From: Cytophagales bacterium
Lineage (GTDB): Bacteria; Bacteroidota; Bacteroidia; Cytophagales; Cyclobacteriaceae
Direction: 5' to 3'
Length of the DNA stretch: 64,000 bases
Assembly: GCA_017303795.1 (NCBI GenBank)
Contig: JAFLBR010000006.1
Coordinates: 285,470-349,469, forward strand
Part shown: one piece after another, positions 1-35,407 of the stretch
Layout of the letters: each line of letters opens with the position of its first letter
How positions within the stretch are numbered: position 1 is the first letter of the stretch
Notes under the pieces: generated by a model
Databases searched by the model: none
Told to the model about the DNA's origin: nothing
The model's input: only the letters and a program-made list of their open reading frames with translations
Position numbers and translations under genes: made by a program

Positions 1-909
1 CAGTTCTTCTTTCGCACGAAAATCCTGTTCATGAACTTCCAGGTGCTGGCGCTTAGCTTCTACCTTTCCGCTGATCTCATCTTTTTGAACAATGGCATAC
101 TTTAGTGCTGCACCCAAATCAGCAGCCAGTTTGCGCTGCTGTATTTTTAGTCGCTGGATCGTTGAAAAATTATCGCGAATCAAATCGCTGCGCTGACTGC
201 TGTCTTTTCGGAAAAACGTTTCGATATCCTGATACCGTTCCGAAAACTGACGCAACTGCCGCTCAATGGTTTTCAGTTCGATAGTGGTATGCTTGGAGCC
301 GATGGCGTTGGCAATACACTCTTTTACAAACTCCGCCCGGATGACCGATTCGGAACTGAGGAAGATGGAAGTAATAGCCAGCGGAATGTTGTGGTAGTTG
401 GCATTGCCTTTCATCAACGCATACTTCTTGTAACGCTTATCGGGGTCGGCACCATAAACAATGTTGCGATACCGTTCAAAGGTTTCGATCTGATCGCTGT
501 AGTCGATCTTGTTCTCGTTAAGCCGCGCCAGCACAGCTTTGGGCAGCAAGGCTTCTTTCTCGTTGATGTAATGCTCCGGATCGAAGGCGCCATCCACAAA
601 CCGATAAAACAACTTGGTGTTGCGATACACCATCACATGAAAAAATCCTTCTTCGGTAGCCAGTTCATACACGATGTACGAATTGGGATACTGAAAATAA
701 TAATCTTCAAAAGTTTTTTGCGAAGTAGAGATACCCAGTTGGCGCGTGTTGGCACTATAGAAAAATAAAATGGCCCGCTGCAACGTAGTTTTACCCATGT
801 TGTTGGTACCTACAAAGCAGGTGTTACCGGCTATCTCTACATTGGAATAGTCCGTATTGGCAATATTGATAAATACAATCCTGTTAAGAATTCTTTTGCT
901 CTCCGTCAT
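1..909 (-). CDS. mksB: SMC-like ATPase MksB/JetC, N-terminal part (cut by window edge)
   Basis: Reading the minus strand from an ATG at 909 gives 303 codons with no stop up to the window edge, so the C-terminal part lies outside. A Walker A P-loop (GTNNMGKT) sits at about residues 34-41, after an N-terminal beta-strand region, as in the head of SMC/MukB/MksB ATPases. From about residue 230 the sequence becomes charged and Glu/Lys/Gln/Arg-rich, fitting the start of a long coiled coil. The ATG lies 26 bases inside the end of the upstream mksE-like gene, so the two are translationally coupled. In the Wadjet scheme this would be JetC, the motor that extrudes DNA loops. Whether it is a defence (Wadjet) or housekeeping (MksBEF) condensin depends on a jetD/mksG gene beyond the left edge. 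Family call is from motif and context, without a search. Confidence 0.8.
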   Translation of the reverse strand, partial: MTESKRILNRIVFINIANTDYSNVEIAGNTCFVGTNNMGKTTLQRAILFFYSANTRQLGISTSQKTFEDYYFQYPNSYIVYELATEEGFFHVMVYRNTKLFYRFVDGAFDPEHYINEKEALLPKAVLARLNENKIDYSDQIETFERYRNIVYGADPDKRYKKYALMKGNANYHNIPLAITSIFLSSESVIRAEFVKECIANAIGSKHTTIELKTIERQLRQFSERYQDIETFFRKDSSQRSDLIRDNFSTIQRLKIQQRKLAADLGAALKYAIVQKDEISGKVEAKRQHLEVHEQDFRAKEEL

Positions 910-1435
910 CGTCAATCGTTATAAGGGTAATCACCTGTTCCAGATAATGAATGGCATCCATTACTTTATATGTGTCTTCATCTTCCTGTTCAAAAAAACC
1001 AGATAGTGCCAGGTCACCAGCAATCTCGGCTACTTTATCCACCATCTTCTCTCTTCGCGAAAGCGCCAGCAGTTTTTGTTTTAATCGTTCATTCGAAAAA
1101 CATTCTTCTGCAATTTGCGTAACGCGGTAGCGTGTACCCGCAGTGGGCTTCTGGTCCATCGATGAAAAAAAATCCATCACATCAATGTAATAGGCAAACT
1201 GCTCAATCTTCTTTTCGATGGAAAGATTCGGCTCATCGGACTGGCTGAAGTAATAGTAGTTATGCCCGTGCTCCAGTGAATAACCGGTGTGCGCAAAAAG
1301 TTCGCGAAGCTGATTGAAGTTATCTTCAAAACTGATGACATCATACAATTTTCCGCGGCTGCCGTTAGCACTGATAAACTGCCCGCGACTGAGGATACCG
1401 AAAATTTCAGGTGCTTGTTTAGGAATGGCGTTCAT
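884..1435 (-). CDS. mksE: MksE/JetB-like condensin accessory subunit
   Basis: A 183-residue acidic protein between a kleisin-like and an SMC-like gene, the position always held by MksE/MukE/JetB (DUF4194-type) winged-helix subunits, which bind the kleisin and DNA. Its length fits that family (about 180-230). The N-terminal half (FGILSRGQFIS) and the ending in acidic residues resemble JetB proteins, but no catalytic motif is expected. The ATG at 1435 overlaps the stop of the upstream gene by four bases (ATGA), and its own end overlaps the ATPase gene by 26 bases, so the three form a tight operon. The call rests mainly on context and size. Confidence 0.7.
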   Translation of the reverse strand: MNAIPKQAPEIFGILSRGQFISANGSRGKLYDVISFEDNFNQLRELFAHTGYSLEHGHNYYYFSQSDEPNLSIEKKIEQFAYYIDVMDFFSSMDQKPTAGTRYRVTQIAEECFSNERLKQKLLALSRREKMVDKVAEIAGDLALSGFFEQEDEDTYKVMDAIHYLEQVITLITIDDDGEQKNS

Positions 1436-2652
1436 GAAACTGGTTTGCGGGCCGGCTTGATGATGGCATAGCCCAGTTTAAGTTTTTGTTTTTTCTCGTT
1501 TACATAATCCATCTTTCCGAGCTTCCCGGAGATAGACAGTTTATGGTCGTAATCAATAGTGATACCTACATATAGAGAGATGCGTTTTTCCAACGACAAC
1601 GTACCTACCTTATCCGGAAATTTGTAGTTGATCACAAACTGAAAAAGATCACTACGACTGTCCATGAATTTTTCTACCAGGCTATCAATGTTTAAGCTGG
1701 TAGATTCTTCCAGCATGTTCGCATCGAAACCATCTTCCATACGTCCGGCAGGTTTTTGCTGATGGTTGCGCAACAGGTTTAACTTACCGGCCAGCTTACG
1801 GGTAATGGTATAGCCACGATCGGAATACAACAGATCCAACGACACCCTTGCCTTCAACGGATTTCTCCGCTGAAACATCAACGCCCGTGTGCCGGTTACC
1901 ACATCAATAAAATTGGTTTTGTATTTAAGCTCTTCGTAATCCTTTAATTCCTTCAGGCGTTGGATCTTCTTATAGATGGCTGCCTGATATTGAATGCGGT
2001 TGATGTAATCGATAATCTGCGATTGTATTTCGCTCAGGTAATCGCGGTTACGCACCAGCACATAACGCAAATCGCTTACAATGGAATTTAATTCTGCATC
2101 AATAACCGTATTAAAAAATCCCTGGGCCTCGGATATAATCTGTTCCGATTCTTTAATCAGATTGATGATGTCGTCACGCTTGGCTTTATACTTATCGAGT
2201 TCCTGAAGTTTGATCAGGTAGTTGTCCTGATTTTTATACGTGTCGTCTATGTTCTTGTGAAGCTTCATCACCTCACGGGAAGTAGTGGAGCTTATCTTCT
2301 TCAACGACCGCTTGATGTTGCGCAAAAAACGGGTGTTGCTGTCAATGCGGTAGTATTTCAGGTTTTCGTTTAACGATTGAATGTTATCGTTAATAAAGCT
2401 GGTGGTAACTTCCCCGATCTCCAGAAACTCTTCAATGAACGTAACGATGCGATCGTCCAGCCCGATGGTTTGATTATTCTCATGAATGATTTCATAGCTC
2501 ACCAGTTTCTCGAGCTTCTCGTCCGACATGTCATCGCGAGCCAGAATTTCGGCTTTGTTCACCGAGTCTTTACTGCCAAAAAGCAGCTCGATGACATCCC
2601 GGCTTTGGTACAGCAGGTTTACGAGATCGCGGATAGAAAGCGGGTGCTTCAA
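1432..2652 (-). CDS. mksF: MksF/JetA-like kleisin subunit
   Basis: A 406-residue protein, first gene of the three-gene condensin cassette. It has an N-terminal winged-helix-like segment (about 1-80), a long helical middle with Lys/Glu/Gln periodicity (about 100-260) and a C-terminal beta-rich domain. This matches kleisins of the MukF/MksF/JetA type, which bridge the SMC heads. No ATG is available: the only plausible starts are TTG at 2652 or a near-cognate ATT just upstream, with an in-frame stop seven codons before the TTG. The 166 bases upstream (2653-2818) hold no gene, so a promoter is likely there, though no clear TAnnTTTG box was found. Weak translation from TTG would suit a toxic-when-overmade system (inference). 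Confidence 0.7.
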   Translation of the reverse strand: MKHPLSIRDLVNLLYQSRDVIELLFGSKDSVNKAEILARDDMSDEKLEKLVSYEIIHENNQTIGLDDRIVTFIEEFLEIGEVTTSFINDNIQSLNENLKYYRIDSNTRFLRNIKRSLKKISSTTSREVMKLHKNIDDTYKNQDNYLIKLQELDKYKAKRDDIINLIKESEQIISEAQGFFNTVIDAELNSIVSDLRYVLVRNRDYLSEIQSQIIDYINRIQYQAAIYKKIQRLKELKDYEELKYKTNFIDVVTGTRALMFQRRNPLKARVSLDLLYSDRGYTITRKLAGKLNLLRNHQQKPAGRMEDGFDANMLEESTSLNIDSLVEKFMDSRSDLFQFVINYKFPDKVGTLSLEKRISLYVGITIDYDHKLSISGKLGKMDYVNEKKQKLKLGYAIIKPARKPVS

Positions 2653-2818
2653 AATGCAGAAAGTAGAACCTTAAAATTACCAAGAAAAATGGTTCTGTAG
2701 CAGAAAGCCTATCGGCATCACCAATCTGTTTATTTCAGATAATCAAGCAGATAGAATTTAATGCTGTACCAGTAATTGCCATCAGCCTAAAACTCAGGCA
2801 TTCAAACAAGTTTAAAGC

Positions 2819-3118
2819 TTATAGAGGCACGCCAGCCGTACAGGAAAGACATTGATTAGCGAACGCATCGTACTCGTCATAAGCAGCGCCAATTTTGCCA
2901 AACAGGGTAATAATTCTGTCTATGCGAACCCTGACACCAGAGTCTAACAAGATGAATATGCCTTGCCCCGATATTTCATCGAGCTTGATAACTCTGCCCG
3001 TTACTTCATCAACTTGGTAACCTGACCAGAAGAATACTTTACCAAAAGTTTGCAGCGCCATTTGTTCTGCAATTGTCTCTCTGAATTCGTAAGCAACTGG
3101 TGTAAAGGAGTTGTCCAT
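2819..3118 (-). CDS. small hypothetical protein (99 aa)
   Basis: An ATG-started 99-residue reading frame with no signal peptide or membrane segment. The middle is beta-strand-like (GQGIFILLDSGVRVRID) and the C-terminus carries two cysteines (QCLSC). I do not recognise a family. It lies 166 bases upstream of the condensin cassette on the same strand, but the gap is too large to argue for co-transcription. Codon use looks like its neighbours. It may be a lineage-specific gene. Confidence 0.45.
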   Translation of the reverse strand: MDNSFTPVAYEFRETIAEQMALQTFGKVFFWSGYQVDEVTGRVIKLDEISGQGIFILLDSGVRVRIDRIITLFGKIGAAYDEYDAFANQCLSCTAGVPL

Positions 3119-3199
3119 GCGGTATTAAATTAGCAGTACTTTTTTAAAACCAACTTTGTCGTAAATAGATTCATTTCCGATTCTTAAAATCTTGGCAAC

Positions 3200-4330
3200 T
3201 CAAAATGCTTCACCTACAGAAAAGTAGAAGTAGCCACCTTCTTTGCCAACCGCATAATCAAAACGGATATTTAATCGTTCGGCTGGATTAACCAACAAAC
3301 GCAAACCAGAGCCTACTGAATATTTAAGTGTTGATAACCGGATATCGTTAGGTGATCTAAACACATCGCCCACACCAGCAAAGCCTACAACGCCTAAACG
3401 CCAGAACAAATGTGCGCGGTATTCAACTTGTGTACCGATAAAGTGATTATCGCGATAACGGTAGCGGGGATAACCTCGTAGCATATCATCGCCACCAGCA
3501 ACAGAAAGATCGAGAAAAGGAACATCGCCATAGCTAAGGCGCAGTTTGGTTTGCAGGTTAAGCGATTGCTTTTTCTTAACGAGCCAATGTTGTTGATAAA
3601 TGGCATTAATACCAACAAAGGAAAAAGTACTACCAAAAGCTGGTGTATAAACATACGTAGATAACTCGGCAAGCTTACCCGTCTGTGCATTAATTGCATT
3701 GTCCCGGCTATCATAAACAGCAACGGCACCCAATGCAGACCCAATGCCGCCTTTATAACCGGTAATGGTACCTTGCTCCAGTACACCACCTGACGTGTAA
3801 CCAAAATTAAATTCGTATTCAAAATGATAATCGAATCCTACAAATAAAGAAGGCCTGATCTTTTTTAGCATCAGGTTTTTAATACTGACTAAACTATATT
3901 CATACCGCTCTTCCTGTGCTGATATTGTATTATTGCCAATGCCAAAAAAGCGATCAGGGAAATTGCGGTAACGTACTTCTCCCTTTAACAGATAATTTTC
4001 ATTACGTGTAAAAACATTCCAGACGCCCCACATATCTAATTGCCGGTTTTGGGTGTAGTCGGCCAAAAACTGGATATATGAAATCCGGGTAAGAACTTCG
4101 TCTTCAGTTTTAGGCGGCACCTTAAAGTAATATACACCTGCGCCACCATAAGCCCAACGCGTATCGGGTGTATAGTATAACAAGGGCAAAACAAAGAAAC
4201 CTTTCTTTTCAATGCTCAGTGTGTCATCCAGCGGAGCAAAGCCTAAAAACTTTTTTTGCTTTTGTGCAAATGCTGTTTGTGCAAACAACAGTATGGCCAT
4301 TAAATACAACACACGCAGCTTCAGGATCAT
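3200..4330 (-). CDS. BamA/TamA-like outer-membrane beta-barrel protein
   Basis: 376 residues with a signal peptide (cleavage after TAFAQ, about residue 22) and then alternating aromatic/hydrophobic strands to the end, finishing in phenylalanine (VGEAF), the usual C-terminal signature for barrel insertion by BAM. Motifs such as RGYPRYRYRDNHF and a Gly-rich late strand (GVVGFAGVGDVF) match the barrel half of the Omp85/surface antigen D15 superfamily. No POTRA domains are present, so this is a barrel-only relative, common in Bacteroidota, of unknown substrate. It may act in outer-membrane transport or assembly. It is followed after 25 bases upstream by the nucleoside hydrolase gene on the same strand. 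Confidence 0.75.
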   Translation of the reverse strand: MILKLRVLYLMAILLFAQTAFAQKQKKFLGFAPLDDTLSIEKKGFFVLPLLYYTPDTRWAYGGAGVYYFKVPPKTEDEVLTRISYIQFLADYTQNRQLDMWGVWNVFTRNENYLLKGEVRYRNFPDRFFGIGNNTISAQEERYEYSLVSIKNLMLKKIRPSLFVGFDYHFEYEFNFGYTSGGVLEQGTITGYKGGIGSALGAVAVYDSRDNAINAQTGKLAELSTYVYTPAFGSTFSFVGINAIYQQHWLVKKKQSLNLQTKLRLSYGDVPFLDLSVAGGDDMLRGYPRYRYRDNHFIGTQVEYRAHLFWRLGVVGFAGVGDVFRSPNDIRLSTLKYSVGSGLRLLVNPAERLNIRFDYAVGKEGGYFYFSVGEAF

Positions 4331-4355: not shown

Positions 4356-5333
4356 TTAATATTTCTTAAGCGACTCAATAAAATCCTGCACAATCGCATC
4401 GCGGTTAAAGTTCTCCCAGATTTTGATTTGCCGAACGTTATCAGGTCGCTCGATCCACTCACCATTTACAAACAATGGTGCAGGATGTGCAGTAACCTGC
4501 GCCCATTCCTGATTCTTCACGATAGCAACAGCAGCCATATCAAACAACGATCGTGCAGGCGGATCGCCATGATAATCGATGTGTTCAAAGAGATTCACAG
4601 CGTAATCACCAAAACAATAAAACTCACCACCGTGCCGACCGATAACAGATTTTGAAATACTAGGACCTAATCCAGGCATCACCTCGCCTACTTCACGTTT
4701 GGTAATGGTTACTACCGATGTACCGGTAGTCTTACCATAACGAACTGTAACCATTTCGAAATCTATTTTCTTATTGAGCAGGTAATTCATGGCTGTAGTG
4801 TCGTTATTCTGGTTGTGCTCACCAGGTTCTGGATAATTAGAGCCTAACCACACCAACCGGATGCGATCTGCTATCGTAGAATCTTTTGCCACTGCAAATG
4901 CCACATTGGTTAACTTCCCTACTGCCAGCACCACTAATTTATCGGTAGCGCGTTTATGTGTTTCTTCAATAATTCGGGCCACCGCTTCGTGGCCATCATA
5001 AACAGCCGAATCTATCGTAGAAACAATTTGCTGAAACGATTGATCGGCTCCTTTTAATACTGGCAATGTATCGGCATTACAAAGTTGAAGTACCCGAATA
5101 GCTTCGGCATATTGCATTTCAATGTTACCACCACTTGATGTGGTGTTAATAGTAATGGCTTCAATTTTAAATACATCCTGATTAAACAAGAGGTAAGCTA
5201 ATGCGTGCTGATCATCCAATTCGTTATTGGTGTCGGTATCAAACACTACTCTGATTTTCGGAGTCAATTTCTTTTTTGATGCATCACAACCTGCTAAAAG
5301 AATGACCAGAAGAAGAATAAGATATGATTTCAT
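4356..5333 (-). CDS. nucleoside hydrolase family lipoprotein
   Basis: 325 residues. The N-terminus has a lipoprotein signal with lipobox LAGC (Cys about residue 16). The mature protein starts with DTDTNNELDD, a variant of the DTDxGxDD calcium-binding motif of inosine-uridine preferring nucleoside hydrolases, which split N-glycosidic bonds of ribonucleosides. A late SLFDMAAVA segment matches the conserved region holding the second metal-binding Asp. The variant motif defines a secreted Bacteroidota subgroup whose substrate is uncertain, so nucleoside scavenging in the periplasm or at the surface is an inference. Length is normal for the family (about 310-330). Confidence 0.85.
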   Translation of the reverse strand: MKSYLILLLVILLAGCDASKKKLTPKIRVVFDTDTNNELDDQHALAYLLFNQDVFKIEAITINTTSSGGNIEMQYAEAIRVLQLCNADTLPVLKGADQSFQQIVSTIDSAVYDGHEAVARIIEETHKRATDKLVVLAVGKLTNVAFAVAKDSTIADRIRLVWLGSNYPEPGEHNQNNDTTAMNYLLNKKIDFEMVTVRYGKTTGTSVVTITKREVGEVMPGLGPSISKSVIGRHGGEFYCFGDYAVNLFEHIDYHGDPPARSLFDMAAVAIVKNQEWAQVTAHPAPLFVNGEWIERPDNVRQIKIWENFNRDAIVQDFIESLKKY

Positions 5334-5362
5334 TGGATAATGATTGTTTCAAATTTAATCTG

Positions 5363-6370
5363 CTACAACACAATATTATTTTGAGGCATAATCGGATCGG
5401 GCAACGAAACTTCATCCAGCATATCGCGCATATCAATCTCAATGGTGCGACTAATCTGTGTGATGGGCACATCGTTCGCACTACCTTCAAATGGATTTAC
5501 TGAACTTTCGCCCACCGTATCCAATGTAAGCAACGCCCAGGTAACTATTGCCGAAAAAGGAATGTTAAACCAGATGGAATAACCTTCCACTAAAGTACCC
5601 GTACCGAGTTTTTCAAATTCGTGTAGTAACCCAAATGGAAAGAAAATCACAAAAATCAACAACAAGTAAGTGGCTATGGACGCGAAATTTCGGGGATACG
5701 GAAAATTTTTAATTCGCTCTGCTTTACCTTGTTCATCTGTAAGGCGCATGAGTGCTTGCTGCAATTGAGTCCACTGAAAGTCGTTTATTGTACCTGCTTT
5801 TCTAAGTGTTGCTAATACTTCCGATTGCTTTGCTGTAAGTTGTGTAGCCCGGTTTTTCTTGGAAAGAATATAGGCAAGTTCTTCTGGTGTTAAGTAATTT
5901 TTTAACTCATCTTCCACTTTACCCACTCTTTCCGGAATGCGGTAATGCGATTCCTGAAATTCTTTATTGCGCCACTCCTGCATGTTTTCCCAGGCCCGTG
6001 GTTCCCGCAGTTGAAATCGTAAAGCAGTAAGCCAGGCAAAATGGCGGTAGAAAATTTGTTTTGTTGTTTCTGCATTTGATTCACCTAATGCATCGCGTAG
6101 GGTGTAAGCAAAACTGCGGCTGTTGTTAATGATTGCACCATAAATCTGGCGTGCCTCCCAAATGCGGTTGTAGCTTGCATTGTTCTTAAATCCTACAATA
6201 AAAGCTACTACAGTACCCATTATAGCAATGGGTTGCCATGGCAATGCAATAAACGTAAGCCCGAAGGCATACAATACTGTGGGAATTGTGGCCAACAAAA
6301 GCATCCAATAAGTATCTCTGCGGGTCCATCTAAAAAAATCTAAGGGTGAGTAACGTCTTCCGGTGTGCAT
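5363..6370 (-). CDS. bestrophin family ion channel
   Basis: 335 residues. The N-terminus (SPLDFFRWTRRDTYWMLL) leads into two membrane helices, then the bestrophin hallmark region FIVGFKNNASYNRIWEAR near residues 50-70, a long soluble helical part and two more membrane helices at about 225-285. This matches bacterial bestrophins (PF01062), pentameric channels in the inner membrane that pass anions or cations. Gene ends 29 bases before the nucleoside hydrolase start on the same strand. A Bacteroidota-type TAAATTTG box lies at 5350-5357 upstream of that neighbour, but without a convincing -33 partner. Confidence 0.88.
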   Translation of the reverse strand: MHTGRRYSPLDFFRWTRRDTYWMLLLATIPTVLYAFGLTFIALPWQPIAIMGTVVAFIVGFKNNASYNRIWEARQIYGAIINNSRSFAYTLRDALGESNAETTKQIFYRHFAWLTALRFQLREPRAWENMQEWRNKEFQESHYRIPERVGKVEDELKNYLTPEELAYILSKKNRATQLTAKQSEVLATLRKAGTINDFQWTQLQQALMRLTDEQGKAERIKNFPYPRNFASIATYLLLIFVIFFPFGLLHEFEKLGTGTLVEGYSIWFNIPFSAIVTWALLTLDTVGESSVNPFEGSANDVPITQISRTIEIDMRDMLDEVSLPDPIMPQNNIVL

Positions 6371-6458
6371 GGTTTAGAAAAAAATATACCTGATGCAAGC
6401 TAATCAAATAGTTTGATCAACCACCTGCTGGAATCATTCGTATCCATAAAGAAGCAAC

Positions 6459-7163
6459 CTACCTTTTAGATCTCAAAACTTTATCGACCGTAAGGTTAGT
6501 AAGAGTCAAGTGCCATTTTTTATCCAAAGGAAAATGATTTTTTTCAAAAATCTGAGGATCAGTTAAAAAGTACTGATCGTTAAATCGACTAACAAATTGT
6601 TTACTCTCACTATCAATCTTTCCGCTCGCCCAGGTGGCATCGCACAAATACCATTTGCCGTTTAGCTTAACGGCATTCCAGTTATGGTTGGGCAAATTTT
6701 TGTTCAGCTTTGCACCCGGTGTGCGACCGTAGCCATCTACAATTACACATTCAAGTCCGGAAGCCAAAGCCAGCTCGCGAATAAGGTAGGCGTAGCCGGT
6801 ACAAATTGTTTTATGATTATTCAAGAGTTCATAATACAAGGTCTTGCTAAATTCTTTATACCACGCTTTTAATTCTGCTTCTGTTTTACACTGCTCACGG
6901 TGTTGTTTATTTTTCAGATACAATTCGTAGTCGTTTCTGATGTTTAAACAAACCCATGTAAATACTGCGCGGAATTTCTCTGCTTCATTTGTAAATGGTC
7001 GCGTTAACTTACCAGCAAGGTCAGGTAAATTAGTTAAAGGGTAATTAGGATATAATCGTGCGACACTATCTGCCCTACCAAAATTTACCTCTTTAAAATC
7101 ACTTACCTGAGCCCTTGCCGATAATACTGCCAGCCATACCACTATGCATGCAAGCAATCGCAT
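6459..7163 (-). CDS. secreted transglutaminase-like domain protein
   Basis: 234 residues with a signal peptide (to about residue 19, SARAQ). The catalytic triad of the transglutaminase-like superfamily is visible: Cys121 in KTICTGYAYL, His160 in NHNWNAV and Asp175 in LCDATWA. Such papain-fold proteins act as proteases or peptide-bond-modifying enzymes in the periplasm, and the exact reaction cannot be told. The ATG at 7163 follows the upstream gene's stop by four bases, so the two are probably co-transcribed. Confidence 0.82.
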   Translation of the reverse strand: MRLLACIVVWLAVLSARAQVSDFKEVNFGRADSVARLYPNYPLTNLPDLAGKLTRPFTNEAEKFRAVFTWVCLNIRNDYELYLKNKQHREQCKTEAELKAWYKEFSKTLYYELLNNHKTICTGYAYLIRELALASGLECVIVDGYGRTPGAKLNKNLPNHNWNAVKLNGKWYLCDATWASGKIDSESKQFVSRFNDQYFLTDPQIFEKNHFPLDKKWHLTLTNLTVDKVLRSKR

Positions 7164-7167
7164 TTGC

Positions 7168-7632
7168 TTAGTGGTTTAAACTTCTGCGTTTCTGTTTTGA
7201 TTTCGCAGGTGCATCCATCCAAACTTCACCCAACACATTCAACGGATCTTCTTCCATGCGAATCTCAATAAACTCAGGCATGTTGGCCGTAACCGTATAT
7301 TCCTGTTTCTTCAAGCCGATAAAACTGAAAACCAAAGTCTCACCCGCTTTAAGTTTTCGAGGAAAGGTAAACTTGCCATTTACATCAGAGAAGGTACCTA
7401 CATTGGTATCTTTCAGGTAAATGTTTACGCCCGTAAGCGCGGTGTTTTCCTCGACTGAAAGCACCACTCCCTTCACTTCATAAGAAGTTTCAGAGGGCTG
7501 AGCACTGGTCTGTGCGAAGGCTACCACGCCTAAAAGCATGAGTACAATTGTTAGTGCATGGCGTAATCCTGAAAAGGTAAACGCTTGTCCGGAAACCGAA
7601 CCATTGGAAATAGAATTTGTTTTCATAAGCAT
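7168..7632 (-). CDS. carboxypeptidase-regulatory-like domain protein
   Basis: 154 residues with a membrane/signal segment at about 22-40 (ending FAQ) and one beta-sandwich domain of the CarboxypepD_reg-like type, seen from GVVLSVEENTALTGVNIYLK and GTFSDVNGKFTF to FSFIGLKKQEYTV. This domain is usually the N-terminal extension of SusC-like TonB-dependent receptors in Bacteroidota. Here it stands alone, followed by a short basic tail (KSKQKRRSLNH). It may be an accessory envelope protein. It is four bases from the transglutaminase gene, which suggests they work together, but no role can be named. Confidence 0.7.
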   Translation of the reverse strand: MLMKTNSISNGSVSGQAFTFSGLRHALTIVLMLLGVVAFAQTSAQPSETSYEVKGVVLSVEENTALTGVNIYLKDTNVGTFSDVNGKFTFPRKLKAGETLVFSFIGLKKQEYTVTANMPEFIEIRMEEDPLNVLGEVWMDAPAKSKQKRRSLNH

Positions 7633-7703
7633 TAGGTTTTTTTAAACCAGATGCAGCGGAAAGGGGGATTCCATAAAAAAATATGAAATATTTCTGCTTG
7701 GAC

Positions 7704-10148
7704 TTACTGACCCTTATCCTTCCCCAACGCTATCTTATAATTATCAGGAGTTCCTGACAATTTCAAATTGATAAACCGAGTGCGTTTTGCATCATCCCGA
7801 TACTGAATCTGGTCCTCCTTTAGAGAATCTGGTTCAACATTTTTGCCAAATAATTTTTGGGCAGCCACCTGCGTTACAAGTTTTAAGGGAATCCGTACAA
7901 AGTATTCCATATTCATATTCAAATCTTGCTTACCTGAAATTTCAATAAAGCCCAAAGTTGAATTGATATTCATGGCTGGTACGGTAAGTACACCATTTAC
8001 AAGATCAAATTTGTTTTGCAGGGTATCGAATCGTACCCGGTTCAGATTTTTATCTTTAAAGAAATCAGACATAGCATCCAGCGCACTATATCGCTCCAGC
8101 CTACCTTTCAAAACCTGTATATCTAAATGAAGTTCTGAATCATCAATGATAGGAACCATGTCGGCATGCATGTGAACTTTACCGGTTAACTTACCACTCA
8201 ACTTGCCATGCAGGTTTTCAGAAATAAGATGGTCTTGCCCAAAGTTTTCAAACTTGAATAACAATTTATCCAGATCAACTTGTTGCACAATCATATTCGG
8301 GCTGAAATAAATCTTATTTCGATCAGAACCATTAAAGTAGCCACTCACTCCTATCTGCCCACCTGCGGCAGCAAGGCTTAATGTATCCACATAGATAAAA
8401 TGATTAGTGGTTGTTCGGGCTTTTACTTTAAAATTGTCGATGAGATAGCGATGATAATTCAAATGACCAATATCAAAATCAAATGTCATATTGGTGAACG
8501 GTACATCGTAAATATTAAAACCAGCTTCATGGTCTTGTGGTGTTGATTTGCCTGCAGGCGGTGGATTATAGTTGAAGAGTTCGTCAAAATCCAGGTGCGA
8601 AGCTTTGAGGGAGAAATGATTATCGCGCTTGCGGATTATGGAATCCGGACCTAGGTAATAATTCAAATCGGCAGTGAACTGCGACTTACCCAACTTACCA
8701 CTAAAATTCTGAATCATGAGATGCTGATCTTCGTAATGAAGCCGGCCTTTGAAATTCTCAAATCGCATCGGATGCACCTTCATACTTGCTTCAACCTTAT
8801 CCAGATTTACATCGGCTGACTTTAGTCCTCTATTAAAATGAAGATCGGCAAAACCATGAAGTTTTAAGTTTTTAAATTCTTCATGACGGTAATCTTCCGG
8901 CACATAATTTTCACCACCATAAGCAAATACATCTTCAAGTTGCAATAGCGCAGAGGTAAGGTTAAATTCAATACGGGTATCACCTTCTGGTTCTGTCAAA
9001 AACCAAAGATCATAATTCTGCAACCTACCATTAAAATGAAAATCACTTTTATCAATCATGCCGGTAAAATCCACTACTCTAAAATCCTGATCATCGACAA
9101 ACACATCGGCATGAAAATCGTGTAGCGTGTGTGGGTAGTGCGTAAGTTTAGCGTACAAGTCTTCAATAAAAAACTCACCCACCGGTAAGTTGGGCGACTC
9201 GGTAAAAGCACGAGCCGAACTATTGAACTTAAGTTTCATGCTTAAGTTTTTGATCTGTTCGTCAATCGGTTTTTTCAGAAGCGTATCACCACTCGTTAAT
9301 TCTTTTACATTCAGCAGTGCTGATTTAATAGTTAGATGTGCCGTTATCGGATTTTTGGTATGATGTAGAATTGCCGGAAGATCGCTGATGTCGGCTGAAA
9401 TAGAAAGATCAGAGTTACCCACTTTTAAATCGAAGCGCTCAATCTTTGCTTCGTGGCCATCCATAGTGGCACGAATATTTACATTACGTACAGGCAAATG
9501 AAAACCGGGAGCCCTGAAAGTAAGGTTCTTTACATCCAGTTCGGTAAAGTACGATTCGTTCAACTTCTCAATACTCTTTTCAGGATTATCCAGATCAACG
9601 ATGTCGTGGAAATTCATGGTAAGCGAAACGTTACCCGACAAATCCTGCAGGTCTTTTATGTTGAGAAACTTGGCCAGAAAGTCGAGATCAAATTCAGAAC
9701 GAACTTTCATTTCAATCTCTGGCGATTCAAAATTTTTAACTGTTAGGTTACCACTAAATATTCCGGCTTCGGGCCGGGCCGAAAAATCAGACAATGAAAA
9801 TTCAGAAGTGGATGCATTCCCCTTTTCTCCGGTAGTAAATTTTCCTTTAAAGAAAAGCTGGTCTAATTTTTTTTGTGATTCTTTATTGTTGAAAAATGCA
9901 TCCTCACAACCAAACTCTGCCAGTACAACTGGGTTATGTCCGTTGGCGGCTTTACCAATTATGGATGCCTCGAAGAAAATTTTACCCGCATTATCGTACC
10001 GTTGCAATGCGGGCGTAAGTTCTTCAGGAGCAAAGGCAAGAAAAAGATCAAAGTTGGGTTTGTTGCCATGAAACCGGATGTCCATATTCATGTCGTCATC
10101 AAAATCAACAGCCCCATCCATCTTAAACAAGGCCCGCTCCAATTGCAA
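7704..10148 (-). CDS. AsmA-like protein, C-terminal piece of a frameshifted gene
   Basis: 814 residues from a TTG, but the frame is open further upstream to about 10200, so the TTG is not a real start. The sequence is a long run of amphipathic beta strands with an AsmA C-terminal-like region (SALDAMSDFFKDKNLNRVRFDTL and MNMEYFVRIPLKLV). AsmA-family proteins anchor in the inner membrane and reach through the periplasm, with roles in lipid transport to the outer membrane. Removing two bases from the (GT)5 run at 10199-10208 joins this piece to the N-terminal piece at 10193-10867, giving one protein of about 1053 residues (visible join FDLHTQLDFDQQ). The C-terminal end looks complete. Confidence 0.75.
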   Translation of the reverse strand: MQLERALFKMDGAVDFDDDMNMDIRFHGNKPNFDLFLAFAPEELTPALQRYDNAGKIFFEASIIGKAANGHNPVVLAEFGCEDAFFNNKESQKKLDQLFFKGKFTTGEKGNASTSEFSLSDFSARPEAGIFSGNLTVKNFESPEIEMKVRSEFDLDFLAKFLNIKDLQDLSGNVSLTMNFHDIVDLDNPEKSIEKLNESYFTELDVKNLTFRAPGFHLPVRNVNIRATMDGHEAKIERFDLKVGNSDLSISADISDLPAILHHTKNPITAHLTIKSALLNVKELTSGDTLLKKPIDEQIKNLSMKLKFNSSARAFTESPNLPVGEFFIEDLYAKLTHYPHTLHDFHADVFVDDQDFRVVDFTGMIDKSDFHFNGRLQNYDLWFLTEPEGDTRIEFNLTSALLQLEDVFAYGGENYVPEDYRHEEFKNLKLHGFADLHFNRGLKSADVNLDKVEASMKVHPMRFENFKGRLHYEDQHLMIQNFSGKLGKSQFTADLNYYLGPDSIIRKRDNHFSLKASHLDFDELFNYNPPPAGKSTPQDHEAGFNIYDVPFTNMTFDFDIGHLNYHRYLIDNFKVKARTTTNHFIYVDTLSLAAAGGQIGVSGYFNGSDRNKIYFSPNMIVQQVDLDKLLFKFENFGQDHLISENLHGKLSGKLTGKVHMHADMVPIIDDSELHLDIQVLKGRLERYSALDAMSDFFKDKNLNRVRFDTLQNKFDLVNGVLTVPAMNINSTLGFIEISGKQDLNMNMEYFVRIPLKLVTQVAAQKLFGKNVEPDSLKEDQIQYRDDAKRTRFINLKLSGTPDNYKIALGKDKGQ

Positions 10149-10192
10149 CTCTGAAGGTTGAATGGTTAGTATTTGTGTTTGCTGATCAAAAT

Positions 10193-10867
10193 CTAACTGT
10201 GTGTGTGTAAATCAAAATGTTTGTGTTTGGCAAATGTAGTATCCCCATTCAGCAGGACATTCATTTCAAAGCGGGTATCAAGTTTCACCAATACATGATT
10301 CTGGTCGGCTTTAAAACGTGATTGTGCGTCCTGTATAAAAGCGTCAATCAACAGGCTATCACTCTCGTTGATTTTTAATACATGAACATTGTTAAGTTCG
10401 ATCGCTTTTATATCGAGGTGGAACTCGGCTGCTGGATCAGAAACTTCTTCCTTTCCTGATAAGGCATTCGTGATGTTAAAACTTCCATCCGCATGTTGTA
10501 CCAGTTTAATGGCCCCATCTTTTACCCGAATAACTTTTATATCCATCTTACCTTGAATAATGGTAAGCAGATCGAACCCCAGGTACACATCGGCTACTTC
10601 AAGCAGCGCGGCCCCGGTCTTGTTCTTGTTTTCATAAATTTTTACGTGATCCAGATCGATGGAAACGTAAGGAAAGTTAGTGAAGGGTGAGATGTGACTA
10701 TCCTGAATTTCGAGTTCGCCTGCAAAATCACGATTAGCAGTATCAATCAATTGTTGTACAATGGTGTCTTGCTTCCAGTATAGCACGGCTACCAAAACTC
10801 CAAATAGAATTACCGGAATCAGAACTACAGAGAGCAGAATCCTTTTCCAGATTTTTTTACGTTTCAT
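10193..10867 (-). CDS. AsmA-like protein, N-terminal piece of a frameshifted gene
   Basis: 224 residues from ATG 10867. A basic start (MKRKKIWKRILL) is followed by one membrane helix (about 10-32) and then the typical AsmA N-terminal motif region (NRDFAGELEIQDSHISPFTNFPYVSIDLDHV in part). The frame ends at a TAG (10193-10195) just after the (GT)5 run, while the next frame continues the same protein family for 814 more residues. As it stands, the product would be a membrane-anchored stub. The start lies two bases after the DoxX stop, so the genes are likely in one operon. Confidence 0.75.
   Translation of the reverse strand: MKRKKIWKRILLSVVLIPVILFGVLVAVLYWKQDTIVQQLIDTANRDFAGELEIQDSHISPFTNFPYVSIDLDHVKIYENKNKTGAALLEVADVYLGFDLLTIIQGKMDIKVIRVKDGAIKLVQHADGSFNITNALSGKEEVSDPAAEFHLDIKAIELNNVHVLKINESDSLLIDAFIQDAQSRFKADQNHVLVKLDTRFEMNVLLNGDTTFAKHKHFDLHTHS
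10199..10208. repeat. (GT)5 dinucleotide run at AsmA frameshift
   Basis: Five GT units (CA on the coding strand) lie exactly where the AsmA-like frame breaks. Four units would restore one continuous reading frame across 7704-10867. Slipped-strand replication at such a run could switch the gene, and base-calling error is the alternative. Confidence 0.85.
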
Positions 10868-10869
10868 TA

Positions 10870-11283
10870 TTACTGTTGATTGCGTTTGAATAAACCATCA
10901 ACACTCCAGGCACCGGGACCGGTAAAGAAAAACAACACCCCAAATAACACAAACATAAACGGATGCTGGTCTTCATACCAGAAGCGGCCATGACCAACAA
11001 AAAAAGTAATGTAGGCTAATGTGCCCGCGGCTATCAATCCACCCAACCGTGTAAAAAGACCCAATGTTAACAGTACACCCGAAATAAATTCCGATGCCTT
11101 GCCGAGGTAAACCAAAAACTCTCCTGCGCCTCCATTAAAATTTTCCCATGTTAAATAACTCTGCATGGTTTCTCTATCAAAAACTTCCAGCCCATGGTAA
11201 GCCATCAACAAACCCACTGCTATGCGAATAATGGCAATTGCCTTATCGGGATAAATTGGCGTGGATGAAAAGAGTTTTTTCAT
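10870..11283 (-). CDS. DoxX family membrane protein
   Basis: 137 residues with four membrane helices. The pattern IIRIAVGLLMAYHG, GKASEFISGVLLTLGLFTRLGG and a final helix before FTGPGAWSVD is that of DoxX/SURF4-like proteins. The family is linked to quinone or thiol redox functions in some organisms, but the biochemical role of stand-alone bacterial members is unsettled. The gene lies 8 bases from the lipoprotein upstream and 2 bases from the AsmA-like gene downstream, all on the minus strand. Confidence 0.85.
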   Translation of the reverse strand: MKKLFSSTPIYPDKAIAIIRIAVGLLMAYHGLEVFDRETMQSYLTWENFNGGAGEFLVYLGKASEFISGVLLTLGLFTRLGGLIAAGTLAYITFFVGHGRFWYEDQHPFMFVLFGVLFFFTGPGAWSVDGLFKRNQQ

Positions 11284-28577: not shown

Positions 28578-29669
28578 TTAATGTTGATGAACAGGGTTTA
28601 CACCATGCTTTAAAATATATTCACTATACAAAAGATAAGCGCCCGAGGTAACAGCAATCTCGCCTTCTGAAAGTCCGTGTACAATTTGCACTTCCGTAGA
28701 AGTTTCCATTCCGGTTTTAACAACGCGGGGTTTAAATGTATTCTTTTCAGTCTCTATAAATACTACGTTACCCTTTTCGCTGCGAATAACCGCTTGCACC
28801 GGTAAGATGATGCCCTCCATTACTTGATTTAACCTGACCTGCACCGGCATACCGGATTGCAGGTTTCCGGTATTGGCAATCGATGCCCGCAAGGTGTAGG
28901 TTTGATTGCCCGGTTTTAGTTCGGGGTTAATAAAATCCACCACAGCATTCAAAACCGGTTGGCCGTTAATCAGTACATCAAGTTGATCGCCCACTTTTAC
29001 GCTATTACCTTCCGCGGCATAAAGTTCGGCCTCTACCCAAAGAGTACCTAAGTTTGAAAGTGAGTAAAGTTTACTGCCTTCCGAAACATATTGTCCCTCG
29101 GCAGCATCTATCGATTGAATAGTACCTGATGCTAGTGAATAGAAGATGTTTGTTGGTTTTACCTTGCCGGATTTCAACATTTCATCTAGTTGATGCTGCA
29201 TAACACCAGCCAACAATAACTTTTTCAATGCAGCTTCGGCAAGATTCTGGTAGTGCTGATTCTGACTTTCAGTTTGCATCTTTTGTTGTAGTAACAAATA
29301 CTCATGCTGTAAGGCTTGCAGCGATTCGCTGTAAATCTCGTACAACGGTTCACCAGCCTTAACGGAACGCCCGGTTTCTTTTACAAACAACTTTTCAATT
29401 CTGCCTGCCACCCGACTGCTGATAACAGTTGAAGATTTTGTATTGGTGGTCAGGCGCGCCTGTATAATTTTTGCTTCTGTTGCTTTTTGCCTGGCTACCT
29501 TTCGCGTTTTGATGTTAGCCAACAACACCTGCGAATCGCTCAACATCAAATCGGTTGCTTTGTCTGTTTCAGCTTGTTGATGTTGATGCGTATGATTTTC
29601 TGGCACTTCGCAAGCTCCTATTAATAATCCTATAAAAATCACTTTTAATGTTCTCATCGTTTTAATCAT
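28578..29669 (-). CDS. CusB-type RND efflux periplasmic adaptor
   Basis: 363 residues with lipobox IGACE (Cys about residue 20) and a His/Gln-rich start (NHTHQHQQ) that could bind metal. The membrane-fusion-protein layout is visible: beta-barrel/lipoyl halves (SSRVAGRIEKLFVKETGRSVKAG in part; GTIQSIDAAEGQYVSEG) around a helical hairpin (about 115-170). It links the inner-membrane pump to the outer-membrane channel. The ATG at 29669 overlaps the stop of the other adaptor gene by four bases. It has no heavy-metal-binding zinc-ribbon-like domain, unlike its partner. Confidence 0.85.
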   Translation of the reverse strand: MIKTMRTLKVIFIGLLIGACEVPENHTHQHQQAETDKATDLMLSDSQVLLANIKTRKVARQKATEAKIIQARLTTNTKSSTVISSRVAGRIEKLFVKETGRSVKAGEPLYEIYSESLQALQHEYLLLQQKMQTESQNQHYQNLAEAALKKLLLAGVMQHQLDEMLKSGKVKPTNIFYSLASGTIQSIDAAEGQYVSEGSKLYSLSNLGTLWVEAELYAAEGNSVKVGDQLDVLINGQPVLNAVVDFINPELKPGNQTYTLRASIANTGNLQSGMPVQVRLNQVMEGIILPVQAVIRSEKGNVVFIETEKNTFKPRVVKTGMETSTEVQIVHGLSEGEIAVTSGAYLLYSEYILKHGVNPVHQH

Positions 29670-30919
29670 TTACTCGTGCGAATAAAGCCTTCACTATCAA
29701 CCAAAAATTGTGCGTTCAAGGCAATCTCATCCATCGAACTTAGTCCGGTTAACGCAATCTTATCAGATGTGGAAGATTGAATAACAACTTGCTTAGCCAC
29801 AAATGAACCCCGTTCTTTTACAAACACAATTGCTTCTGTGCCCAGGTCCACAACGGCCTGCCGGGGCAACCACATCCACGCACTTGTTTTGGTTGACCAT
29901 TGCGCAGTAGCCAACTCCCCAATTTTTAAATTAGCACCGGGCACATATATCCGCACAAGCGCTAACTCCTGATTGGTATTATAAAACGGTTGAATAAACC
30001 CAACACGTGCAGGCACCACAGTTTGCCTTAACTTTAGATTTATAGTATCGCCAACGCTTAAGTTTTTACTTTGCTCTGCCGAAACCGATAATTCAATTAG
30101 CAAAGAATTTGTATCGACTATGCTAAACAAAGTTGCACCAGCGTTTACATAGTCTCCCTCTTTAATTATATCTGTATTGTTAGCTTGTGGTATTGTAGCA
30201 TTGGTTTGCATACCCATGTTTGGCTGCGTAGCAATTGTTGGCTGTGGTTGTTCACCCATCACAACAAATCCACTTACCGGACTTATAATCGGAAAGCGAT
30301 ATTGAACTGCCTTCGATTGAACTAGATTGGCAAGCAATGGCTCCGTAAAGCCCAACAAACTTAGTTTATCTTTTGCCTGTTGAATCGCTTGCTCGTTATC
30401 ATCTTGTTGTAACAACCATAACAACTCTTGTTGTGCAGTTGCCAACTCAGCACTATAAATCTCTGCAATTTTTTGTCCTTTACTTACCGATTGATAAGGA
30501 TACTTCAGAAAAACTTTTTCCAGTCGCCCGCCAATACGAGCCGGGATAGTAAACCGGTTACGCGAATCATAGGTAACTACACCGGTAGCTTCCGTAGATA
30601 AAGTTTGTGAAGCAAACTCGCCTTTTATGGTTTTGATGGATGACACCACTCGTTCATTTGGAGATTTGAGCAAGCGCACCAAATCCTCCGTTACTTTTAC
30701 CTCTTCTCCCGGCCAAGCCTTACGCACCAAATCCATATTGCACACCGGACACACACCTTGTTTATCTGAAAAAACCGTAGGGTGCATTGGACAGATATAG
30801 GTGTCGACATTAGCAGAATGCTGTTTTGAATCACAAGCAATCAACATCCAAGCTATTATCACGAAAATTGTCAATTGGCAATTGACAATTGACAATTTAT
30901 TTTTCAATCTCACGCTCAT
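29666..30919 (-). CDS. CusB-type adaptor with heavy-metal-binding domain
   Basis: 417 residues from ATG 30919. A TTG three codons earlier is less likely. The lipobox is MLIAC. A heavy-metal-binding domain follows (YICPMHPTVFSD to CPVCNMDLV, about residues 42-67), then the CusB membrane-fusion core (AGRIGGRLEK-like lipoyl region, helical hairpin, barrel). An unusual Met/Asn/Gln-rich stretch at about 220-250 lies before the barrel. The signal peptide is partly encoded by an AATTG-rich repeat (30864-30902). Two adaptors in one operon suggest a mixed or two-part complex. Confidence 0.87.
   Translation of the reverse strand: MSVRLKNKLSIVNCQLTIFVIIAWMLIACDSKQHSANVDTYICPMHPTVFSDKQGVCPVCNMDLVRKAWPGEEVKVTEDLVRLLKSPNERVVSSIKTIKGEFASQTLSTEATGVVTYDSRNRFTIPARIGGRLEKVFLKYPYQSVSKGQKIAEIYSAELATAQQELLWLLQQDDNEQAIQQAKDKLSLLGFTEPLLANLVQSKAVQYRFPIISPVSGFVVMGEQPQPTIATQPNMGMQTNATIPQANNTDIIKEGDYVNAGATLFSIVDTNSLLIELSVSAEQSKNLSVGDTINLKLRQTVVPARVGFIQPFYNTNQELALVRIYVPGANLKIGELATAQWSTKTSAWMWLPRQAVVDLGTEAIVFVKERGSFVAKQVVIQSSTSDKIALTGLSSMDEIALNAQFLVDSEGFIRTSK
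30864..30902. repeat. AATTGACAATTG-type short repeat in signal peptide region
   Basis: A run of imperfect AATTGACA/AATTGTCA units, partly palindromic, in the 5' end of the second adaptor gene and reaching the TolC stop. It translates as LSIVNCQLTI. A related repeat lies at 32122-32156. Such units seem to spread in Bacteroidota genomes, from memory. Confidence 0.65.
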
Positions 30920-32186
30920 AGCTAACAATCATTTCGTAATACTTCAGTTTTGTGTCCAGATATTGCAGGCGGATCATATTCAACGTTTCCCAACCATCAA
31001 TTACCATGGGCAATTCTTCTTTGTTCTCTTCATAAGCCAGCATTAAATTTTCATAACTCTTTTTCAACACCGGAATAATACGCAGCTCATAATTTACTAG
31101 CTGTTGCTGTAAGGTTTTGATTTCTGCAATCATACTTGCAGTCATTCCTTGTACTTCGTTCATGATTGCCAATCGCTCGGCTTTCATGGATTCGATTTCG
31201 TAATCCATTGCCTTAGCATTTGCTTTGTACATTTTAGACGACCACGGAGCAATGGGTATTGTAACCATACCCAACAACATAAATTGATTAGGCATGCCCT
31301 GCCCCATCGAAATCATGTGACTAAAGTTCAGATTAAAATCAGGCCGACTCTGGGCCTTTTCTACTTGTTGATTCAAGCGCATAGATTTTATAGTACGCTC
31401 AAGTTGATACAGGTCACTTCGGTTTTGAGTAAGTAAAATCGTATCGATAGTTACCAACTCAAATTCTCGTTCAATAGCAGTTGTATCAATTACAAAATTG
31501 ATTGATTGTGAGGCATTCATTAATTGCTTGAGGATTATCTGCTGCTTCTGAATTTCATTCTCATTCATCAACTGCATATTTTTAACTTCATGCAGTCGGC
31601 CTTCAGCTTTATAAATGTTAGAAAGTTTTTCCTGATTGTAGGGATAACGCACTCGCCCTACGCGAATCATAAGATTAAGAATCTCTTCCGACTCCAGAAG
31701 CTGTTTTTGCTTTTGTTCAACCAAATACCATTTATAATAAGCAAGTTTTGCCTGAGCCTTTAACCCGTTGTAAAAAACACGTTCATTGGCTTGTTCAATT
31801 CCTGCACGTGATGACAAATACTGTTGATTCGCTTTTAGCTTAGCCGGATTAGTAAACGTCTGCGATACGGAAACCATTATTTGCCGCGTATCTGCCAGGT
31901 GCTCGTAGTTTTGTTTCTGATACGGAAACATCCACAATCCCCCACCCACTTCAGGAGCCATTAAACTTTTTGAACCGGCCACGTATGCGTTCATCGCTTG
32001 CGCTCTATTCCGATAGGTATTCAACATCGGGTTTTGCTTTTCGATTACGTGCAGCACACTATCCAAGCTTAAGATTTGAACCTGACTATTAGCTATCAGT
32101 GGTGCCCCGAATAGAAAAAGCAAAATTGACAATCGAAAATTGACAATCGAAAATCCAAATACAGATTTCAAACAATTATTCTCCAT
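30897..32186 (-). CDS. TolC family outer-membrane efflux channel
   Basis: 429 residues from ATG 32186, chosen because GGAAGG lies just upstream and the CusA stop overlaps it. An earlier in-frame ATG at 32219 would reach further into cusA. A signal peptide ending near ANSQ is followed by long amphipathic helices of the TolC/CusC type, with two repeated halves (about 40-220 and 230-420). It forms the outer-membrane channel of the copper/silver efflux complex. The signal region contains two 14-base repeats. Confidence 0.85.
   Translation of the reverse strand: MENNCLKSVFGFSIVNFRLSILLFLFGAPLIANSQVQILSLDSVLHVIEKQNPMLNTYRNRAQAMNAYVAGSKSLMAPEVGGGLWMFPYQKQNYEHLADTRQIMVSVSQTFTNPAKLKANQQYLSSRAGIEQANERVFYNGLKAQAKLAYYKWYLVEQKQKQLLESEEILNLMIRVGRVRYPYNQEKLSNIYKAEGRLHEVKNMQLMNENEIQKQQIILKQLMNASQSINFVIDTTAIEREFELVTIDTILLTQNRSDLYQLERTIKSMRLNQQVEKAQSRPDFNLNFSHMISMGQGMPNQFMLLGMVTIPIAPWSSKMYKANAKAMDYEIESMKAERLAIMNEVQGMTASMIAEIKTLQQQLVNYELRIIPVLKKSYENLMLAYEENKEELPMVIDGWETLNMIRLQYLDTKLKYYEMIVSYEREIEK
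32122..32156. repeat. 14-bp tandem repeat in tolC signal peptide
   Basis: Two exact AAAATTGACAATCG units (32122-32135 and 32136-32149) and a partial third, encoding SIVNFRLSI on the minus strand. It is related to the repeat at 30864-30902. Confidence 0.75.
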
Positions 32187-35100: not shown

Positions 35101-35328
35101 TAAGCCTTGCAGGTTGGTTACTAACGGATAGGTAACCTGGTCTTCCATAATCTGCGGACTGCGTCCCATCCATTCGGTAAAAACAATTACCTGGTTTTCG
35201 GATAAGTCTGGTATGGCATCGATCTTACTGGTTTGCACCGATAGCACACCCCAGAAAAACAATCCGGCCGCGACCAGCAATACGAGGAAGCGATTACGAA
35301 GAGAAAAAGAAATTATATTTTCAATCAT
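32176..35328 (-). CDS. cusA: CusA-type heavy-metal RND efflux pump
   Basis: 1050 residues from ATG 35328 (MIENIISFSLRNRF), the usual CusA/CzcA start. An in-frame codon further upstream adds an unlikely Cys-rich tail. It has the RND layout of two sets of helices and large periplasmic loops. The fourth-helix motif GVIVDNGIIMAEN has one Asp and the EN pair, like CusA and unlike the DFG form of CzcA, which points to monovalent copper or silver. The porter segment EFMPPLDEQSILFMP supplies Met residues for metal transfer. A short insert of about 14 residues (near 417-430) looks like a palindromic repeat element. It is the inner-membrane engine of the efflux system. Confidence 0.92.
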   Translation of the reverse strand: MIENIISFSLRNRFLVLLVAAGLFFWGVLSVQTSKIDAIPDLSENQVIVFTEWMGRSPQIMEDQVTYPLVTNLQGLPQVKYVRGSSMFGMSFVYVIFNDDTDVYWARERVLERLNYATRLLPEGVVPTLGPDGTGVGHILWYTLDAPGMDLGEQRAIQDWYIKFALQNVSGVSEIASFGGFQKQYQVALNPNKLQYYNLSVSEVIQSIRANNNETGGRKFEINDIGYIIKTTGYLKSIDEIENIAVKTVNTTPVKVRDLGTVQMTGEPRLGIFDFDGEGEVVGGIVVMRYGENADEVITRIKAKMNDVAKGFPEGMQFKIVYDRSELIEESIASIKTTLVEEMIVVSLVVILFLFHWRSSLSIIIQIPITLAISFILLNLFGITSNIMSLTGIVLAIGVIVDNGIIMAENAYRNLSLQSSSVEGPGVRLQIIEKSSQQVSRGLFYSTIIIITSFLPVFMLTGQEGKLFHPLAFTKTFIMLVDAILVITLAPVLISFFMKGKFKPEGSNPINRFLEKIYEPILRACLNWRKTTIGINILALGISIPLLISLGTEFMPPLDEQSILFMPVTLPDVSNEEVKRILQVQDKIIKSVPEVDKVLGKAGRASTATDNAPISMIETIITLKPKSEWREGISKKDIINELDAKLQIPGVVNGWTQPIINRINMLATGIRTDVGIKVFGQNLDSIYAISEKVKSILKVVDGVKDLYVDPITGGKYLTIDINREALGRYGLTVDEVNMIVESGLGGTAIGQTIEGRQRFSISVRLAQNFRSSISQMERTPIKTPALGIIPLSAVATLRYEDGPPMIVSDNALLRGAVLFNVRDRDLGSTVEAAIEKVNTELGTLPKGYFLEWSGQYENLIRGKQTLMLILPIVLLIIFISLYLAFKSIREAFLSLITVPFALIGGAYMVYFYGVNLSVAVAVGFIALFGIAVETGVVMVIYLNDAMKQLIQLRGNTREAISFQELKEYVVMGAAKRLRPKIMTVCVSLFGLVPVLWSTGVGSDVMQPIVLPMIGGVLTSATHILLVTPLIFLITKEYELRKFGKLEGYGE
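34045..34073. repeat. REP-like palindromic element inside cusA
   Basis: CCTCA and TGAGG flank a C-rich core (CCCCCGGCCCC), read on the coding strand as SSSVEGPGVRL. The same GEGPGVR-type translation occurs in many Bacteroidota genes that carry a small interspersed element, from memory. Here it sits in a cytoplasmic linker between two membrane helices and keeps the frame. Confidence 0.6.
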
Positions 35329-35387
35329 AGATTTGACATGAGTAGAACACGAAATGCGAGGACACGCGTGTGCCTTCAAGACCAACA

Positions 35388-35407
35388 CAGGATTGAATAA
35401 AATCCTG
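35388..35407. repeat. inverted repeat upstream of cusA
   Basis: Perfect 7-base arms CAGGATT / AATCCTG with a 6-base loop, between the HYC_CC_PP gene stop and the cusA start. A second palindrome, ACACGCGTGT, lies at 35362-35371. These may act as operator, attenuator or mRNA-processing sites, and neither has a T run. Confidence 0.4.

Follow-up and report, generated by a model that had tools for sequence, protein, structure and literature searches.

The left edge of the window, by which we mean the whole 64,000-nucleotide stretch of Cytophagales DNA analysed here, carries the first genes of an SMC-type cassette, and the question it raises is whether this is an anti-plasmid defence system of the Wadjet type or a chromosome condensin of the MksBEF type. 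We consider it likely that the locus encodes an MksFEB (Wadjet-like) cassette armed with a nuclease and probably acquired horizontally, and our best reading places it in a clade where one motor switches between armed and unarmed forms. Throughout, 'armed' denotes an operon with a JetD-like nuclease and 'unarmed' a kleisin–MksE–ATPase operon without one. The window corresponds to C21:285470-349469 in an assembly of 4.87 Mb and 24 contigs; its left flank was read as L002, and a window position equals the L002 position minus 15470.

Gene content of the cassette

The genes run leftwards on the minus strand. A kleisin subunit (MksF/JetA-like; 1432..2652, 406 aa, TTG start) is followed by the KITE subunit MksE/JetB (884..1435, 183 aa) and by an SMC-type ATPase, MksB/JetC, of which positions 1..915 lie in the window (ATG at 909, in-frame TTG at 915). 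The first part of the ATPase continues on the same strand to L002 13170 (1071 aa in all) and its C-terminal part lies in another frame at L002 12698-13249; next, on the same strand and likewise left of window position 1, comes a gene for a JetD/MksG-like nuclease of 293 aa (L002 11813-12694). The kleisin and MksE genes overlap by 4 bases (1432-1435), and the MksE and ATPase genes by 26 (884-909, taking the ATG at 909). The initial annotation had described the order MksF–MksE–MksB with these same overlaps, and the same minus-strand ORFs were recovered; its expectation that a JetD/MksG gene might lie beyond position 1 was borne out, as reading the ORFs of the window and its left flank gives four adjacent genes in JetA-B-C-D order (kleisin-KITE-SMC-nuclease), with the nuclease directly after the ATPase. 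Neither of the findings it had named as counting against it, no nuclease-like gene after the ATPase or an ATPase best matched by another SMC-like or AAA family, was encountered: the best family of the ATPase is DUF3584 (PF12128; E=1.4e-54 for the first part and 6.2e-07, under the cut-off, for the second), with a weak PADLOC match to JetC3 (E=3e-06).

MksE was recognized as such (PF21980, E=1e-34), as expected of the JetB/MksE KITE subunit of Wadjet. The kleisin had no match below E=0.1 in Pfam, PADLOC or NCBIfam, and 11 aligned orthologues were 56-82% identical. Its low-confidence AlphaFold model (mean pLDDT 61.6) gave no Foldseek match at E <= 0.001; ranks 1-6 were all chains of MukBEF, MukE-MukF, MukF or JetABCD entries (E 0.0012 to 0.058, with low TM-scores), and these fold matches are supportive at most. 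Across 16 loci, including the window copy at 2652, the aligned kleisin start codon was GTG in 9, TTG in 5, CTG in 1 and ATG in 1; the TTG is thus not peculiar to the window copy, and the prevalence of TTG or GTG (14/16) fits a conserved weak start, a candidate limit on the amount of protein.

The nuclease matches DUF7281 (E=4.6e-15), PADLOC JetD1 (E=7.9e-06) and JetD_C (E=0.0052, below its cut-off), and it contains all three catalytic motifs expected of a JetD Toprim domain, E..ENF, DxDxxG and LEQE. The same motifs occur in canonical JetD of five other Bacteroidota genomes, save that the first pattern was unmatched in one (L081). Among eight close nucleases E..ENF and DxDxxG were present in all and LEQE was exact in five, the others having AQE (L015), YEQE (L040) or no such motif (L009). 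We note that the L009 gene (13683-14528) ends just ahead of the LEQE position. For MksG and JetD, acidic residues have been put forward as catalytic (PMC10123090); by motif order they would correspond to these motifs. The protein is 293 aa long, against 394-438 aa in five canonical JetD controls, and lacks the DUF3322 arm, which among 10 proteins scanned was seen in five, namely those controls; four controls scanned with PADLOC JetD1 scored E=4.7e-115 or better, and hhalign against canonical JetD aligned 43 columns only (probability 16.6%, E=0.0015). A low-confidence AlphaFold model of the L009 nuclease (pLDDT 58.4) had no Foldseek match at E <= 0.001; ranks 1-4 were topoisomerase VI-A chains (E 0.011-0.027, TM-scores < 0.3), again supportive at most. 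Judged by its motifs and profile matches, the nuclease is a short, divergent JetD. DUF7281, for which a search of the open-access literature found no paper, would thereby be likely to serve as a compact JetD. No relatives of the nuclease were found in viral contigs or phage records, and sequence searches of solved structures with the nuclease and the ATPase gave nothing useful.

A JetD/MksG-related Toprim nuclease gene after the ATPase makes the cassette Wadjet-like. It shares with type I Wadjet JetABCD, or MksBEFG, all four subunits, their order and a Toprim nuclease with E..NF, DxDxxG and LEQE; it differs in its shorter, armless nuclease with a weak JetD1 match and in its unrecognized kleisin. 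For JetABCD it has been proposed that kleisin–KITE–SMC dimers extrude DNA loops, collide with themselves on small circles and so activate the nuclease (PMC10586767). By homology, the SMC-type ATPase of this cassette, together with the KITE dimer and the kleisin, would work as a dimeric motor that extrudes DNA loops; on a small circle the motors would use up the free DNA and the complex would stall, and in that state it would switch on the short JetD-like Toprim nuclease, which would cut the plasmid.

The interrupted ATPase

The reading frame of the window-copy ATPase is broken near its 3' end by the stop at L002 13170, so that the conserved blocks which we take to be the signature and Walker B regions lie in the separate C-terminal part. 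The uninterrupted proteins of congeners L004 and L005 have 1225 and 1228 aa. As assembled, the window copy therefore lacks an intact JetC, although the family is right (PF12128), and it is filed as Wadjet-like rather than as a proven member. The prediction that a following jetD would make this an anti-plasmid system thus holds in part: the nuclease is in place and the cassette is Wadjet-like, but the nuclease is short and divergent and the ATPase ORF is interrupted. Also against a Wadjet-like reading are the kleisin without a PADLOC match, the weak JetC and JetD matches, the missing DUF3322 arm, the 43-column profile alignment to canonical JetD and the relatives without a nuclease that are described below.

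The possibility that the break is conserved across the family was rejected, as 14 of the 16 related loci fetched, and also L004, L005 and L006, encode the ATPase in one uninterrupted frame. The frame is split in L017 and L019 too; canonical SMC genes of both genomes are likewise in pieces, and so these breaks are probably assembly errors. The canonical SMC gene of the window genome is whole, and no split gene was seen among eight window proteins, a weak test in that three of these had no family match. Beyond the break, 157 residues of the window copy are 88.5-90.4% identical to four relatives and contain no second lesion, which argues that the break is either a recent lesion or an assembly error. 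Only if the break is such an error, or if the two ATPase pieces cooperate, would the cassette as assembled be active.

One explanation for these data, to which we give somewhat less than an even chance, is that the broken ATPase marks a recent pseudogene without function; this is compatible with the Wadjet-like reading, which names the kind of system. The stop after 1071 aa, against about 1228 in relatives, is consistent with it, as is the branch of the window copy in a quick tree (0.54 vs 0.15 and 0.12 for its groupmates), whose excess is concentrated in the central part of the protein and may reflect relaxed constraint. The C-terminal part, at about 90% identity to relatives, also compares with 97% in the corresponding 100-column block in three comparisons among the relatives themselves. 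Against decay, nothing further is damaged after the break, the nuclease, kleisin and MksE frames are all open, and a lone frame break may stem from misassembly. Another possibility, which we regard as improbable, is a working system whose ATPase arises by frameshifting or as two separate polypeptides (a split head). The C-terminal ORF does possess a separate TTG, located upstream of the break, and mksB seems to be split in Pseudomonas putida KT2440 (Weiss et al. 2023, PMC10123090), but the single ORF in relatives implies that there is no conserved frameshift site.

Armed and unarmed relatives

A GTDB scan queried with the ATPase rather than with the nuclease returned the 16 related loci; L009, L022 and L024 among them are genomes G034, G015 and G064 of a separate search of 77 genomes. 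The nuclease lies directly after the ATPase in three (L009, L022 and the Chryseolinea lacunae locus L015), and a whole-genome profile search (E <= 0.001; some genomes being draft MAGs) found none in the other 13 genomes, which indicates that the motor persists without the nuclease too. Eleven of these 13 have a complete kleisin–MksE–ATPase operon, including the two with a split ATPase frame (L017 and L019), so that plasmid defence does not follow from the three genes alone. The remaining two are L023, which stops at a contig edge, and L024, with ATPase and MksE on separate contigs. A split operon of this kind, with the ATPase gene on another contig than the sole MksE found in the genome, was seen both in L024 and in L070 (G479). 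G412 (L072) is also unarmed, and L046 was left out of the count as its ATPase runs off the record. The uninterrupted four-gene form was found in L005/L022 and L015 among genomes and on four plasmid records. In all three carriers of the window's genus (the window genome, L009/G034 and L022/G015) the nuclease comes right after the ATPase, with flanks that are not common to them.

Ten downstream proteins scanned at eight loci comprised eight of ordinary families (among them HSP70-like, peptidase M50, AraC, LuxR, MacB and Pvc16) and two with none. Three synteny blocks (L012/L016/L018/L019, L011/L020 and L013/L017) take in eight of the 11 unarmed loci, in part owing to close kinship (the ATPases of L012 and of L018, the latter from Ohtaekwangia koreensis, are 99% identical), and L010, L014 and L021 are in no block. 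No flanking family was common to the armed loci, L015 being tied to others through broad clusters (c4, c20). For kleisin, MksE and ATPase respectively, dN/dS was 0.054, 0.062 and 0.026 in L011-L020, 0.108, 0 and 0.016 in L012-L018, and 0.082, 0.060 and 0.042 in L013-L017 (frames taken stop to stop, with a few upstream codons included); in the other five pairs dS was saturated in at least one gene. The first three pairs show purifying selection on the unarmed core.

ATPase identity was 60-80% in 70 of 78 pairs of the Bacteroidota clade. A single clade of armed ATPases was rejected (AU p=0.0004; quick tree of 14 rows, no bootstrap), and the window-genome, L009 and L015 ATPases grouped together in a quick tree (SH-aLRT 98). 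These smaller quick trees, which carry the conclusions, have no bootstrap; L024 was dropped from the tree used for branch lengths, and L017, L019 and L024 from that used for the AU test. They suggest that the nuclease state changed, as gain or loss, at least twice as a minimum. A 27-row ATPase tree with plasmid and outgroup rows, also in quick form, had long branches and needed seven label changes; it scored L025 and L046 as unarmed when their status was unknown, and did not group the window-genome, L009 and L015 ATPases. Residues that might mark nuclease docking did not emerge from a scan without L017, L019, L023 and L024: columns separating armed from unarmed proteins numbered 0 in kleisin, 0 in MksE and 1 in the ATPase, compared with 0-1, 0 and 0-2 in nine control sets.

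These relatives bring in the alternative that the core works chiefly as a chromosome condensin (MksBEF), with the nuclease an accessory or decaying add-on. The MksBEF condensin of P. aeruginosa (PMC10586767) has the same three core subunits and the unarmed relatives have exactly that content; the window copy, in contrast, has an adjacent nuclease, and the likeness is one of gene content. In its favour are the 11 complete operons in genomes where no nuclease was found, with dN/dS <= 0.11 in the three pairs unsaturated for all three genes, shared synteny for eight of the 11 loci and cores that no residues separate from armed ones beyond control sets, as well as the L009 nuclease, cut short before LEQE. 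What makes this account unlikely for the window copy is that the nuclease directly follows the ATPase in all three carriers of the genus in the absence of common flanks, and that full-length canonical SMC is also present in these genomes, so that the housekeeping role is already filled. A third account, membership of Lamassu or another SMC-like defence family, we consider highly improbable: matches to LmuB (E=0.27) and AriA (E=0.0011) can be cited for it, but DUF3584 is far stronger, the locus has both MksE and a JetD-like nuclease, and LmuA had no match among five proteins scanned.

We therefore retain the nuclease-armed, Wadjet-like cassette as the preferred reading. For the clade as a whole we propose, with the balance about even, that a JetD nuclease was gained or lost at least twice on one essentially unchanged Bacteroidota motor, giving armed forms for defence and unarmed, selected, condensin-like forms. 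If this is true, defence and chromosome-organizing SMC complexes interchange by one subunit, and the close relatives with and without the nuclease, like the armed and unarmed copies on different replicons of Persicobacter psychrovividus, are matched pairs for testing that idea. Our searches of open-access papers turned up none on this Bacteroidota armed/unarmed series, which is not proof that none exists.

Probable acquisition, plasmid copies and neighbouring loci

The cassette lies in a segment of about 10.3 kb (L002 8337-18671; 1..3201 in the window) that also contains a 99-aa ORF (window 2819-3118) and, outside the window, genes for an FG-GAP protein and an OmpA-family protein. Its conserved right flank is an Omp85-family gene (3200..4330, minus strand; PF01103), 92% identical in the congener G009. 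There, only 66 bases separate the flanking Omp85 and PhyH genes, against 10.3 kb here, and G009 has no ATPase match; the site would be an empty one, a deletion in G009 being also possible from this one comparison. Neither a target-site duplication at the ends of the segment nor an integrase gene was seen, and the GC content is like that of the flanks. Horizontal acquisition is nonetheless probable, given this site and the patchy distribution among congeners. The OmpA-family gene of the segment has a second copy, 89% identical, about 9 kb away (G000:C21:269105-269818).

The subfamily is rare. A strong ATPase match was present in two of 46 congeners (77 genomes searched), a third having a short match of 27%, and the ATPase subfamily was found in 2/392 Bacteroidota genomes (E <= 1e-30, two candidates scored per genome). 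The nuclease profile was matched in 3/392, two of these partial, and Pfam DUF7281 in 1/392; MksE occurred in 52/392.

Within the stretches fetched, four plasmid records (L039-L042) carry the four-gene form and three (L043-L045) the unarmed form. In Persicobacter psychrovividus the armed copy is carried by pPP6 and the unarmed one by pPP3; Plasmid1 and Plasmid2 of Persicobacter sp. JZB09 are likewise armed and unarmed respectively. The operons of pPP6, JZB09-Plasmid1 and two Phocaeicola massiliensis records have the same kleisin–MksE–ATPase–nuclease content as the window cassette; their nucleases are 31.5-36.2% identical to that of the window genome and their ATPases just 27-28% identical to that of L004, all being records filed as plasmids. 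In a quick tree four chromosomal nucleases split from the four plasmid ones (support 80). The Parabacteroides record (L044), with the housekeeping-type neighbours gcvT and NAD synthase, may be chromosomal DNA filed as plasmid, and as the Phocaeicola records share its strain-series name, their plasmid status is uncertain. Pseudomonas sp. Leaf58 pBASL58 (L047, 4860-11378) has another order: ATPase, proteins of 213 and 412 aa, and a 285-aa relative of the nuclease.

The window genome also contains a second, different Mks-type operon (L067, G000:C12:160000-179000, at 4826-10940), which encodes a 442-aa protein, MksE (221 aa), a MukB-N-like ATPase (1113 aa) and a 282-aa JetD-like protein with DxDxxG as the only motif of the three. 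It adjoins a gene for a strawberry-notch-type helicase and may sit on a mobile element. The genus also has a canonical type I Wadjet JetD, in the congener G221 (L073; PADLOC JetD1 E=3.3e-135). Elsewhere in the window, a row of efflux genes at 29666-35388 encodes an AcrB-type transporter, an outer-membrane efflux protein and an HlyD/CusB-type adaptor with a heavy-metal-binding domain.
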